Source: a bacterium
Lineage (GTDB): Bacteria; AUK180
Direction of reading: 5' to 3'
Assembly (NCBI GenBank): GCA_030622125.1
Contig: JAUXGM010000072.1
Location: forward strand, 1 to 11,330
DNA: 11,330 nt
Shown one piece after another: positions 4,402 through 8,866 of the stretch. The notes under the pieces are model-generated. The model was not told the DNA's origin and did not search any database. It worked only from the letters and a program-made list of their open reading frames with translations. The position numbers were made by a program, and so were the translations under genes. Within the stretch, counting starts at the first letter, position 1. Every line of letters starts with the position of its first letter.

Positions 4402-5385
4402 ATGAGTAAAAAGAACATTTTAATAATTACCGATAATTATGAATACAAGGGCGGTATTCGGGTAATGACGGATTCTATCCGTTCCAAATATAAAAATTCA
4501 AATGTGAAAATAGCAAGTATTATCAGTAAAAAGTGCAAATTGGAAGATATAGATATTATAAAGATTCATTTTCCATTTAATTTTATTTATTTAATACGAA
4601 TATTTTTTTTGCCGATCCTCATAAGAAAAAGGATTAAAAGATCAGACAGAATTATTGTTATTGCTCCAAATCCTCTTTTAGCATTGATGCCTCCGCTATT
4701 TCATAAGAATATAATCCTCTGGTATGCAACTACATTCCCTGATGAAACCATAAACAAATCTTTTAGCAGACTTAGTAAAAAAAATAAAATAGTTCTCTTT
4801 TTTGATTTTATACTTCTTCCCATATATTTTTTTCTTGAAAGGATAATACTACAAAATAGGAAAATAAAGATTGCTGCAATAAGTACGAAAAGTGCGAACT
4901 ATCACAAAATAAAAAGAAATATTAAAATTATTCGTTATCCGATAGAAAAATTCTGGTATGATAAAACTGCAGAAAAAAGATCGGGCGTTATATCGGTAGC
5001 AAGATACAATGATCCGCGGAAGGATCTGAAAACATTATTAAAAACAGCAATTATATTAAAAGATGTGAACTTCGTTGTTATCGGACCTTTACCTGATAAT
5101 TTTAATGCAAAATCATATATAAATATTCATTTTTTAGGTGAACTTGATAGGAAAGATATTAAAAAGTATTATGATCGGGCAAAAGTTTTTTATCTCCCAT
5201 CCAAACAGGAAGGGCTTGGGATAGTTTATTTAGAGGCACTGGCTTGCGGTTTACCTATAATAACAATGAAAAACGGCGGTGCCGAAGAAATAATTAAAGA
5301 TGGAGATAACGGCTTTCTTTTAGAAAAAGGTGATTATATCGGTGCTGCCGAAAAGATAAAAATGCTTCTTTGGAGATATATATGA
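4402..5385 (+). CDS. GT4-type (GT-B fold) glycosyltransferase
   Basis: Probable transfer of a sugar from a nucleotide-sugar donor to an envelope glycan or lipid; donor and acceptor are unknown. The C-terminal half carries the GT4 signature: VISVARYNDPRKDLKTLLKT (about 199-218), VIGPLPDN, HFLGELDRKDIKKYYDRAKVFYLPS, and the EX7E motif EGLGIVYLE with Glu270 and Glu278, followed by ALACGLPIITMKNGGAEEII. The N-terminal half is divergent, with a Gly-rich start (DNYEYKGGIRV) expected of an acceptor domain and very hydrophobic stretches at about 53-74 and 130-147 that suggest membrane association. At 327 residues it is at the short end, and the usual final helix is brief. The stop overlaps the next start as ATGA, so the two genes are translationally coupled. 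Confidence 0.85.
   Translation: MSKKNILIITDNYEYKGGIRVMTDSIRSKYKNSNVKIASIISKKCKLEDIDIIKIHFPFNFIYLIRIFFLPILIRKRIKRSDRIIVIAPNPLLALMPPLFHKNIILWYATTFPDETINKSFSRLSKKNKIVLFFDFILLPIYFFLERIILQNRKIKIAAISTKSANYHKIKRNIKIIRYPIEKFWYDKTAEKRSGVISVARYNDPRKDLKTLLKTAIILKDVNFVVIGPLPDNFNAKSYINIHFLGELDRKDIKKYYDRAKVFYLPSKQEGLGIVYLEALACGLPIITMKNGGAEEIIKDGDNGFLLEKGDYIGAAEKIKMLLWRYI
5372..5375 (+). promoter_or_regulatory. Ribosome binding site deciding the start of the editing-domain gene
   Basis: GGAG six bases before ATG 5382, within the last codons of the glycosyltransferase. It favours 5382 over an in-frame ATG at 5370, which would add only four residues outside the fold. Confidence 0.7.
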
Positions 5386-5765
5386 AGATATTGATGTTTC
5401 AATTTGAGGAGTATTCATATTCTTTGAATGCGGATCAAAAAAAAATGTTTGCAGATGGGATCATTGTTTTTACCCATGTTGAATCAAAAGACGAAGAAAA
5501 TAGTTCAAAGGTAGTCACAAAGTATATTAAGAATATTAAATGGTTTGCCGGAAAATTTAATAAAAAAGAGATCATTCTTCATTCATTCGCTCATCTTTCG
5601 GATGATAAAGCGACTCCCGAATTTGCAAAAGAGGTGTTAAAACAAGCTGAAGAACGATTAAAAAATTCAGGATATGATGCAAAACAAACGCCTTATGGAT
5701 ATGTTTTAAATTTTGAATTAAAGATGGACAATGCTCCGCTTGCACGTTTTTTCAAATCATTTTAA
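5382..5765 (+). CDS. Free-standing archaeal-type threonyl-tRNA synthetase editing domain protein
   Basis: A 127-residue protein that matches, end to end, the N-terminal editing domain of archaeal ThrRS (PF08915, a DTD-like fold), which removes serine wrongly attached to tRNA-Thr. Seen: the first strand MKILMFQFEEYSY, GIIVFTHVES in the middle, IILHSFAHLSDDKATPEFA at 64-82 (archaeal PFAHLS...AKP), then GYDAKQTPYGYVLNFELK at 97-114 and APLARFF at 118-124 (archaeal PFGYYKAFK and PLAELSR). The FAH histidine is kept as His71. The archaeal Lys in GYYK, reported as important for the reaction, aligns with Leu109. No synthetase or anticodon-binding domain follows, so it would act in trans, or on another substrate. 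It is coupled to the glycosyltransferase through ATGA, but no functional link is obvious. Family assignment is strong; activity is inference. Confidence 0.87.
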   Translation: MKILMFQFEEYSYSLNADQKKMFADGIIVFTHVESKDEENSSKVVTKYIKNIKWFAGKFNKKEIILHSFAHLSDDKATPEFAKEVLKQAEERLKNSGYDAKQTPYGYVLNFELKMDNAPLARFFKSF

Positions 5766-6187: not shown

Positions 6188-7411
6188 ATGATCAACATAG
6201 AAAAAAATTATTCAATAAATGCAAGACGAATGAAAAAATCTGCTATTAGGCAATTATTAAAATTAGCCAGTAAACCGGAAATTATTTCATTCGCCGGTGG
6301 TTTACCTGCTCCTGAGGCATTTCCAGTTGAGGAAATTGCTGATATAGCAAGTGATGTGATAAAAAGAGATGGGAAAAAAGCGCTTCAATATGGAGCAACC
6401 GAAGGTTATTCTCCACTTGTAGAAGAATTAATTAAATGGGAAAAGGAAACAAATGATATTGACATCAAGCCGGAAAATCTCATTATTACAACTGCTTCAC
6501 AACAGGCACTTGATCTTATCGGAAAGATCTTTATTGATCCGTCGGATCCGGTAATTGTTGAAAGGCCGACATATCTTGGCGGACTTTCCGCTTTTAATCA
6601 GTATGGTGCAAAATTTATCGGGATACCAATGGAAAAGGGAAATTCGGGAATAGATATGGATTATTTAGAGCAGGAATTAGAAAGACTAAAAAAGTCGCAG
6701 GAACATTATAAATTTGTTTATGTTGTACCGGATTTTCAAAATCCTACCGGATTAACTATTCCAACGGAAAAAAGAGAAAAATTAATAGAACTTTCAGAAA
6801 AATATGAGTTTCTTTTAATAGAAGATTCTCCTTACAGAGAATTGCGATACGAGGGAACGACGCCTGAATTGATGTATAAAATGGATAATACGGGAAATGT
6901 TCTTTCCGTACATACATTTAGTAAAATATTTGCTCCCGGGATGAGAATCGGTTGGGTTGTTGGAAATGAAAAAATAATTGATAAGTTAAATACGGCGAAA
7001 CAAGCAGCAGATCTTTGCACCTCTACATTTACACAAGCGGTAACAGCGGAATTTATGAAGCGCGGGCTTCTCCAAAAAAATATTGACAAGGTGAAAAAAA
7101 TATACAAAAGGAAGAAGGATCTTATGATCGAGGGCTTTAAGCAATATCTTCCACAGAGAGAAGATATAACATGGACAGAGCCTGATGGCGGTTTATTCTT
7201 ATGGCTAACCCTTCCGAAGTATATAAATACCGATAAGATGTTTGATGAAGCTTTAAAAGAAAATATTGCGTACATCGTCGGTAGTGCCTTTGATTGTTAT
7301 GGAGAAAGTCTAAATACAATGAGAATAAACTTCTCTTATCCATCCGAGGATGATATAGTTGAAGGGGTAAAGAGATTGGCTAACCTTATCAAAAAAAATA
7401 TAAAAGATTAA
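6188..7411 (+). CDS. PLP-dependent aminotransferase, 2-aminoadipate (LysN)-like
   Basis: Class I/II (fold type I) aminotransferase of 407 residues, cytosolic. It resembles Thermus LysN, which moves an amino group between 2-aminoadipate or similar acids and 2-oxoglutarate. Shared landmarks: IRQLLKLASKPEIISFAGG and LPAPEAFP near the start, ALQYGATEGYSPL, TTASQQALDLIGK (cofactor phosphate loop), VVPDFQNPTGLT (Asn of the PLP site), IEDSPYREL (Asp to the pyridine N), and HTFSKIFAPGMRIGWV with the Schiff-base Lys246 and Arg252. GGLFLWLTLP and MRINFSYP (substrate carboxylate Arg) lie near the C-terminus. There is no N-terminal winged-helix domain, so it is not a MocR regulator. LysN-like proteins vary in substrate (aminoadipate, aromatic or branched-chain amino acids, kynurenine), and no lysine pathway genes are nearby. 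A strong AGGAGG lies four bases before the ATG. Confidence 0.92.
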   Translation: MINIEKNYSINARRMKKSAIRQLLKLASKPEIISFAGGLPAPEAFPVEEIADIASDVIKRDGKKALQYGATEGYSPLVEELIKWEKETNDIDIKPENLIITTASQQALDLIGKIFIDPSDPVIVERPTYLGGLSAFNQYGAKFIGIPMEKGNSGIDMDYLEQELERLKKSQEHYKFVYVVPDFQNPTGLTIPTEKREKLIELSEKYEFLLIEDSPYRELRYEGTTPELMYKMDNTGNVLSVHTFSKIFAPGMRIGWVVGNEKIIDKLNTAKQAADLCTSTFTQAVTAEFMKRGLLQKNIDKVKKIYKRKKDLMIEGFKQYLPQREDITWTEPDGGLFLWLTLPKYINTDKMFDEALKENIAYIVGSAFDCYGESLNTMRINFSYPSEDDIVEGVKRLANLIKKNIKD

Positions 7412-7420
7412 AAGAAAGAT

Positions 7421-8866
7421 ATGAAAAAATGGACAGATTTTGCTCTTGATTTAATAAAAAGACAGGGGGCTATCTATGGTGATGTACGAATAGTTGAAAG
7501 AAAGGATCAGGATATTCTTATTAAAAATGGAATAGTTGAATCAAATGCTTATAGTGAATCATTGGGAATAGGTGTCAGGGTTATTGTTGATGGAGCATGG
7601 GGTTTTGCTTCAACGTACAATTTAACAAAAAATAATATCAAAAAGATCGTCAAAAATGCCATAGATATAGCAAAAAGCAGTGCAAAATACATTGAAAAAC
7701 CAATAAAATTAGCTCCAAGCGAAGGTATTGAAGATGAATATATTTCTCCCTATAAAATGGATCCTTTTAGCCTGCCAGATGAAGAAAAGATAGGGCACCT
7801 TCTTGATGCAAACAAATCTATACGAATAGATCCAAAGATTATAATGGCATTTTCCAGTGCGAATTTCAGAAGAGAGGTAAAAATATTCACTAACACTGAG
7901 GGAAGTTTTATCAAGCAGACATTTATTCAATCCGGTGGAGGTATTAGTTGTGTTGCCTTTAAAGATGGTGAAATAGCAAGGCGTTCTTACCCCGCTTCTT
8001 TTGGTGGTGATTTTAGAAATAGTGGTTGGGAATTTATTCTTGAAATGAATTTTAAGGAAAATGGACCCAAAATAGCAGGGGAGGCAATAGAACTTTTGAC
8101 GGCACCTCAACTTCCTCATAAAAAAACCACATTGGTCATTGGTGATTCACAGCTTGCATTACAAATACATGAATCGGTAGGTCATCCGACGGAACTTGAT
8201 AGGGTATTGGGCTTTGAAAGATCCTATGCAGGCACGAGTTTTGTTACATTGGATAAACTTTATGAATTACAGTATGGTTCTAATATGGTCAATATTGTTG
8301 CAGATGCAACGGATCAAAGAGCCCTTGGAGGGTTTGCTTACGATGACGAAGGTATTCCTGCTCAATCAACATACTTGATCAAAGACGGACTTTTTGTAGG
8401 ATATCAAACATCCCGAGAAACAGCACCCATTATCGGTCAGGTTTCAAATGGATGTATGAGAGCAGATGGATTTCGTAATATTCCGCTTATTAGAATGACA
8501 AGCATCAATCTTCTTCCCGGTGATCATAGTTGGAAAAAGATCATCAGCGAAATTGATGAAGGATTCTATTTTGATGTAAATAAATCATGGAGTATTGATG
8601 ACAAACGATTGAATTTCCAATTCGGTTGTGAGATCGCTTATGAGATAAAAAACGGTAAACTTGGAAAGATATATAAAAATCCTACCTATACGGGAATTAC
8701 ACCGGAGTTCTGGAATTCCTGTGATGCGATCGGTTCAAAAGAATATTATCGGATATGGGGTATCCCGAACTGTGGCAAGGGAGAGCCGCCGCAGACGGCA
8801 CGAGTTTCACATGGTGCTTCCTTTGCAAGGTTCAAAAATGTAGAGATAGGAGTTGGAGAATGGTAA
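7421..8866 (+). CDS. tldD: TldD-family metalloprotease subunit
   Basis: Catalytic subunit of the TldD-TldE heterodimeric zinc protease, which degrades unfolded peptides in the cytosol and in enterobacteria acts on CcdA and on the microcin B17 precursor. The signature HEXXXH is present as HESVGH, His250-Glu251-His255, in LQIHESVGHPTELDRV. The distal Cys that completes the zinc site in E. coli TldD matches Cys451 in GIPNCGKGEPPQTARVSHGA. Other family features are SLGIGVRVIVDGAWGFAST near the N-terminus and GGFAYDDEGIPAQSTYLIKDG at about 306-326. The length of 481 is normal. The ATG is nine bases after the aminotransferase stop with a weak purine-rich site (AAAGAAAG). No toxin, antitoxin or RiPP precursor is seen nearby, so substrates cannot be named. 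Confidence 0.95.
   Translation: MKKWTDFALDLIKRQGAIYGDVRIVERKDQDILIKNGIVESNAYSESLGIGVRVIVDGAWGFASTYNLTKNNIKKIVKNAIDIAKSSAKYIEKPIKLAPSEGIEDEYISPYKMDPFSLPDEEKIGHLLDANKSIRIDPKIIMAFSSANFRREVKIFTNTEGSFIKQTFIQSGGGISCVAFKDGEIARRSYPASFGGDFRNSGWEFILEMNFKENGPKIAGEAIELLTAPQLPHKKTTLVIGDSQLALQIHESVGHPTELDRVLGFERSYAGTSFVTLDKLYELQYGSNMVNIVADATDQRALGGFAYDDEGIPAQSTYLIKDGLFVGYQTSRETAPIIGQVSNGCMRADGFRNIPLIRMTSINLLPGDHSWKKIISEIDEGFYFDVNKSWSIDDKRLNFQFGCEIAYEIKNGKLGKIYKNPTYTGITPEFWNSCDAIGSKEYYRIWGIPNCGKGEPPQTARVSHGASFARFKNVEIGVGEW
8848..8852 (+). promoter_or_regulatory. Ribosome binding site deciding the start of tldE
   Basis: AGGAG seven bases before ATG 8860, inside the end of tldD. It fixes the start at 8860; an upstream in-frame ATG at 8755 would only add 35 residues read from the shifted frame of tldD. 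Confidence 0.75.

Follow-up and report, generated by a model that had tools for sequence, protein, structure and literature searches.

A bacterial free-standing relative of the archaeal threonyl-tRNA editing domain that probably clears some other charged tRNA

We describe a bacterial, free-standing relative of the archaeal threonyl-tRNA editing domain which, judging from its sequence, probably clears some other charged tRNA. Two residues beside the catalytic chemistry of the archaeal domain have been replaced in every free-standing bacterial copy that could be read at both sites, and the genome retains both an intact threonyl-tRNA synthetase (ThrRS) editing site and a separate D-aminoacyl-tRNA deacylase (DTD). 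The gene lies in a stretch of 11,330 nucleotides (the window) from an assembly of 2.08 Mb that is 96% complete. It is a complete open reading frame with an ATG start and the sole PF08915 copy of this genome; its GC content does not differ notably from that of the window (31% versus 33%). The features discussed below are as follows, with residues of the Pyrococcus abyssi domain marked Pab.

4402-5385 (+), GT4 glycosyltransferase gene, upstream; its 3′ end runs 4 nt into the editing gene, and relatives do not share this neighbour
5382-5765 (+), free-standing PF08915-type editing-domain gene, 127 aa
5580-5597 (+), codons of the HSFAHL motif: His67 (Pab Tyr79), Ser68 (Pab Pro80), Phe69, Ala70, His71 (Pab His83), Leu72
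5703-5708 (+), codons of Val108-Leu109 (Pab Tyr120-Lys121), where the pocket lysine is gone
5745-5747 (+), codon of Arg122 (Pab Glu134, the cross-subunit residue gripping the substrate alpha-amino group; PMC4491819)
5809-6171 (+), gene for a coiled-coil protein of 120 aa that has a Cys4 zinc-ribbon-like motif and scores above threshold for no Pfam family
6188-7411 (+), class I/II PLP aminotransferase gene, two genes past the editing gene

The family assignment is secure. The PF08915 profile matches the 127-aa protein over nearly its full length (positions 4-136 of 137) with an E value of 1.8e-34 and a score of 119 bits against a cut-off of 30.2. The NCBIfam ThrRS model aligns through its N-terminal positions 28-134 of 613 only, indicating that no synthetase part is present; the reading frame has no linked ThrRS catalytic or anticodon-binding domain, and ThrRS is encoded on another contig. 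Archaeal ThrRS editing domains are the sole significant matches in the PDB, and the DTD profile PF02580 does not match the protein. An AlphaFold model built with 78 relatives as input (mean pLDDT 93, pTM 0.87) shows a predicted DTD-like fold. It superposes on the editing domains of P. abyssi, Methanocaldococcus jannaschii and Aeropyrum pernix with Z scores of 18-20 (123-127 residues aligned, rmsd 1.7-2.3), and on DTD with lower scores of 14-16, the archaeal editing domains being its best structural matches. A preliminary description, made from the sequence alone, had recognised an archaeal-type ThrRS editing domain without a synthetase; that observation is correct, well above chance, on both counts.

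The pocket is where the bacterial protein departs from its archaeal relatives. In P. abyssi, Lys121 places the catalytic water, the 2′-OH of A76 does the catalysis, and Glu134 of the partner subunit grips the substrate alpha-amino group (PMC4491819). Alignment bears out the earlier remark that the histidine of the FAH motif is kept (His71) and that Leu109 occupies the position of Lys121. It further reveals that Tyr120 has become Val108 and Glu134 has become Arg122, and the absence of any insertion or deletion between Gly118 and Glu134 makes this register secure. These changes extend across the family. Lys121 is missing from all 125 distinct stand-alone bacterial sequences readable at both sites, being replaced mostly by Leu, by Asn in a second subclade, and rarely by His, Cys, Ile or Met. 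The Glu134 site holds Arg or Lys in the same 125 of 125. Tyr120 is replaced by Val, Phe or Leu, and the archaeal Tyr79-Pro80 pair by His-Ser; among 119 distinct bacterial domains, the P. abyssi columns read H79 in 117, S80 in 113, H83 in 118 and L84 in 119. The positions of His83, Glu46 and Gly118 are almost invariant across bacterial copies, suggesting a site that is constrained rather than decayed. The seed-based scan is biased toward bacterial-type sequences, and unbiased PF08915 searches gave the same pocket result. The hint of altered chemistry or specificity in the preliminary description is thus supported at the level of sequence, and family-wide.

What these replacements might do can be gauged from mutants of the archaeal domains. 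K121M severely impairs three of them, yet leaves high affinity, and mutating the equivalent glutamate inactivates the M. jannaschii domain (PMC4491819). On these grounds the window protein might be inactive. However, the P. abyssi and A. pernix domains can do without Tyr120 and Glu134, and DTD, which has Met at the lysine position, is nonetheless active through the same RNA-based chemistry (PMC4491819). Loss of the lysine therefore does not equal loss of activity. In a weak hhalign profile alignment, Leu109 pairs with the Met of the genome's own DTD.

The rest of the genome constrains the possible roles. The preliminary description had pointed to the host's own ThrRS as informative, and the genome encodes one full bacterial-type enzyme with a complete N2 editing motif (HSSAH, CRGPH). 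Intact N2 motifs are also present in 20 of 20 other genomes examined that bear the editing gene. Consequently, cis editing by ThrRS very likely deals with Ser-tRNA-Thr already, and rescue of an editing-deficient ThrRS can be ruled out. The genome carries one separate DTD gene, and DTD was found in 7 of 7 genomes of the phylum; replacement of DTD is likewise ruled out. No true SepCysS scored above the TIGR02539 cut-off in any of 39 genomes with the stand-alone form, this one included, ruling out a SepRS/SepCysS pathway link for the stand-alone clade. The window also carries a sigma-70 factor, TldD/PmbA proteins, PanD and phosphate butyryltransferase-like genes. The bacterial-type ThrRS, the sigma-70 factor and synteny with independent bacterial metagenome-assembled genomes (MAGs) mark the genome as bacterial. 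Archaeal contamination of the contig was considered and is excluded by the bacterial neighbours and by gene order kept in independent MAGs.

The gene is one member of a broad bacterial group. A scan of 85,000 genomes recovered 193 bacterial relatives, and the 80 of these that were listed come from Bacteroidota, Ignavibacteriota, Calditrichota, KSB1, Zixibacteria, Aminicenantes, Cloacimonadota, deltaproteobacterial MAGs and others. The stand-alone clade spans more than a dozen phyla, and PF08915 searches had hits in 5 of 7 genomes in the host's own phylum, 12 of 40 in that of a Caldithrix genome, 17 of 132 in that of a Zixibacteria genome, 41 of 395 in that of a deltaproteobacterial MAG, and 2 of 395 in that of a Bacteroidales genome. 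In a tree of bacterial stand-alone copies, fused copies and archaeal ThrRS domains, built from 136 columns only and with many inner forks unresolved, all the stand-alone copies group as one clade (100/100), and a long branch sets this clade apart from the other two groups. The proposal that this genome gained the gene from Archaea is weakened by this placement, and a recent single gain is not supported. There may have been an ancient inter-domain transfer, in either direction, the genomes searched being bacterial. A mobile-element origin is unsupported, as no relatives were found in viral contigs, plasmids or phages. We found no published description of the bacterial stand-alone clade, in a search that was thin in subscription journals. 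One genome (G796) holds two near-identical stand-alone editing genes far apart on one chromosome (L147, L148). In another (G023; L043, about 8001-8411, and L109), the editing gene contains an in-frame TAA, reflecting either a pseudogene or a sequencing error.

The only bacterial copies that retain Lys121 are two fused ones, both in a single genome (G502). At one locus (L141:1341-2522 and 2728 onward, +), SepCysS is followed by an editing domain-SepRS fusion of the type described in PMC8762117, interrupted by masked Ns. At the other (L142:3587-5545, +), on a 3.4 Mb contig, a PF08915 domain forms the N-terminus of a complete cysteinyl-tRNA synthetase of 652 aa. This ED-CysRS fusion retains the GWYK pocket lysine, is present in this one genome only, and was not reported in the literature examined.

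The gene order downstream of the editing domain is shared by four relatives, two from the same family and two that are close MAGs: the 120-aa zinc-ribbon-like protein comes next, then the aminotransferase. In six Calditrichota loci (L024, L039, L043, L048, L060 and L087), the gene immediately before the editing gene encodes the tRNA CCA-adding enzyme, and in five of these loci the two genes overlap by 1-4 nt, although this link may stem from a single event in one lineage. Outside Calditrichota, neighbours give no pointer to tRNA, and the most recurrent one is a sirtuin. Of the 75 loci with gene context, 13 have a sirtuin gene with intact catalytic motifs no more than four genes from the editing gene; these loci come from at least seven phyla, and their pattern requires nine or more changes on the tree. 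In nine of them the sirtuin gene immediately follows the editing gene in the same orientation, in some with a 4-nt overlap. Examples include L065:8330-9079, L074:6994-7749 and L093:8412-9146, such genes often overlapping or lying a few bases away. All sirtuin-linked cases fall within one subclade, so joint transfer may account for them, and no sirtuin lies near the editing gene in the window or in loci of the host's own phylum.

We lean, by a little more than even chances, towards a small homodimeric, trans-acting aminoacyl-tRNA deacylase of the DTD fold, RNA-assisted and with a shifted substrate; its dimeric state, tRNA binding, catalysis and substrate are what we infer. If the archaeal ThrRS editing domains are a guide, the 3′-terminal adenosine of an acylated tRNA would dock on the conserved backbone (VE..D, HSFAHL, TPxG), and the tRNA's own 2′-OH would activate water to cut the ester. 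The pocket would operate without lysine (Leu109, compare Met in DTD), and where the archaeal partner subunit grips the alpha-amino group with a glutamate, the partner here would contribute the positively charged Arg122. With the lysine gone and Arg122 standing for Glu, the substrate is presumably not Ser-tRNA-Thr, and charge reversal at the alpha-amino site would disfavour an ordinary aminoacyl group with a free amino group as the preferred substrate. The target might rather be a different mischarged or abnormally charged tRNA, such as one carrying an acidic acyl group or a blocked alpha-amino group. A link to translation is suggested by the fold and by the CCA-adding enzyme upstream in the Calditrichota loci.

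Other readings deserve consideration. The protein could be an archaeal-derived factor that edits Ser-tRNA-Thr in trans, the same job as the archaeal domain, as the preliminary description had entertained. Membership of PF08915 is consistent with this, as is the ability of isolated archaeal domains to edit E. coli Ser-tRNA-Thr (PMC4491819). This is nevertheless quite unlikely, given the complete N2 site in the host's ThrRS and all other genomes examined, the universal loss of a lysine whose removal cripples the archaeal domains (PMC4491819), and the charge reversal at Glu134. Indeed, the intact N2, the separate DTD and the lack of SepCysS together make Ser-tRNA-Thr editing an improbable main role. 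It is also unlikely, though slightly less so, that the protein has lost catalysis and now binds or shields the acylated 3′ end of tRNA without hydrolysing it. The high affinity and lost activity of K121M would fit a family in which that lysine is always missing. Yet DTD works without it, the histidine and backbone motifs are strictly conserved, which argues against decay, and Arg or Lys in place of Glu throughout looks like re-purposing.

If the protein were a further deacylase for D-aminoacyl-tRNA or Gly-tRNA-Ala, redundant with DTD, the shared fold and the DTD-like hydrophobic residue at the lysine position would fit. The Gly-cisPro segment is missing, however, and the presence of DTD in every genome of the phylum makes this DTD-like alternative, also raised in the preliminary description, very unlikely. 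The lowest odds, barely below those of a second DTD-like deacylase, go to a speculative deacylase of O-acyl-ADP-ribose or a similar sirtuin-made ribose ester, acting on something other than tRNA. Sirtuins release O-acetyl-ADP-ribose, a ribose ester that has no alpha-amino group. An acetyl ester of this kind would account for the loss of Glu, Arg could bind phosphate, and the recurrent sirtuin neighbours point the same way. Against this, neither the window nor the host's phylum has a sirtuin close to the editing gene, the linked cases are confined to one subclade, and the ester of O-acetyl-ADP-ribose is carried by the other ribose. A broader idea, which we hold only tentatively and consider rather doubtful, is that the stand-alone clade represents a third functional branch of the DTD fold, whose charge reversal across the subunits turned it away from ordinary aminoacyl-tRNAs and towards N-blocked or acidic acyl-tRNA, or towards O-acyl-ADP-ribose from the adjacent sirtuin.

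The putative deacylase with a shifted substrate resembles several known systems and coincides with none. It shares the full-length PF08915 domain, the fold and the His83, Glu46 and Gly118 positions with the N-terminal editing domain of archaeal ThrRS (P. abyssi, M. jannaschii), which differs in being synthetase-linked, whereas the bacterial form is free and has Leu, Asn or His for Lys121 and Arg or Lys for Glu134. Tyr120-Lys121, Glu134 and ThrRS linkage, which mark the Ser-specific archaeal subgroup, are all absent from the window protein. Crenarchaeal ThrRS-2/ThrRS-ED (A. pernix) uses the same domain to edit in trans, apart from the synthetase. It carries an anticodon-binding domain as well and retains Tyr-Lys and Glu; the window protein consists of the editing domain alone. 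Published examples (PMC5424206, PMC8762117) include stand-alone tRNA-Thr-ED genes next to SepCysS in archaea and bacterial fusions of ED to SepRS. Like the window protein, these place PF08915 outside ThrRS, also in bacteria. The fused copy of G502 keeps Lys121 and Glu134, and a conserved Ser motif is reported for such domains; the window protein has neither, and the co-occurrence with SepCysS seen for tRNA-Thr-ED does not extend to the bacterial stand-alone form. DTD1 shares the fold, a hydrophobic residue at the Lys121 position and stand-alone status in bacteria; where it has SQFT and Gly-cisPro motifs, the window protein has HSFAHL and DNAPLAR.

Authors of the archaeal work argued that, with pocket side chains dispensable, the fold cannot be rewired, which may explain its few functional contexts (PMC4491819). 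Here, in a broad bacterial branch, two residues beside the chemistry have changed in every free copy, and tethered copies keep the lysine. Archaeal editing domains also hydrolyse Gly-tRNA-Gly (PMC4491819). PMC8762117 argues that this would make a free archaeal-type domain risky in bacteria and suggests that bacteria tether such domains for this reason, since the U73 determinant also occurs in their tRNA-Gly. That free copies are always rewired and tethered ones (in bacteria, two only) hold on to the lysine is what this idea predicts.
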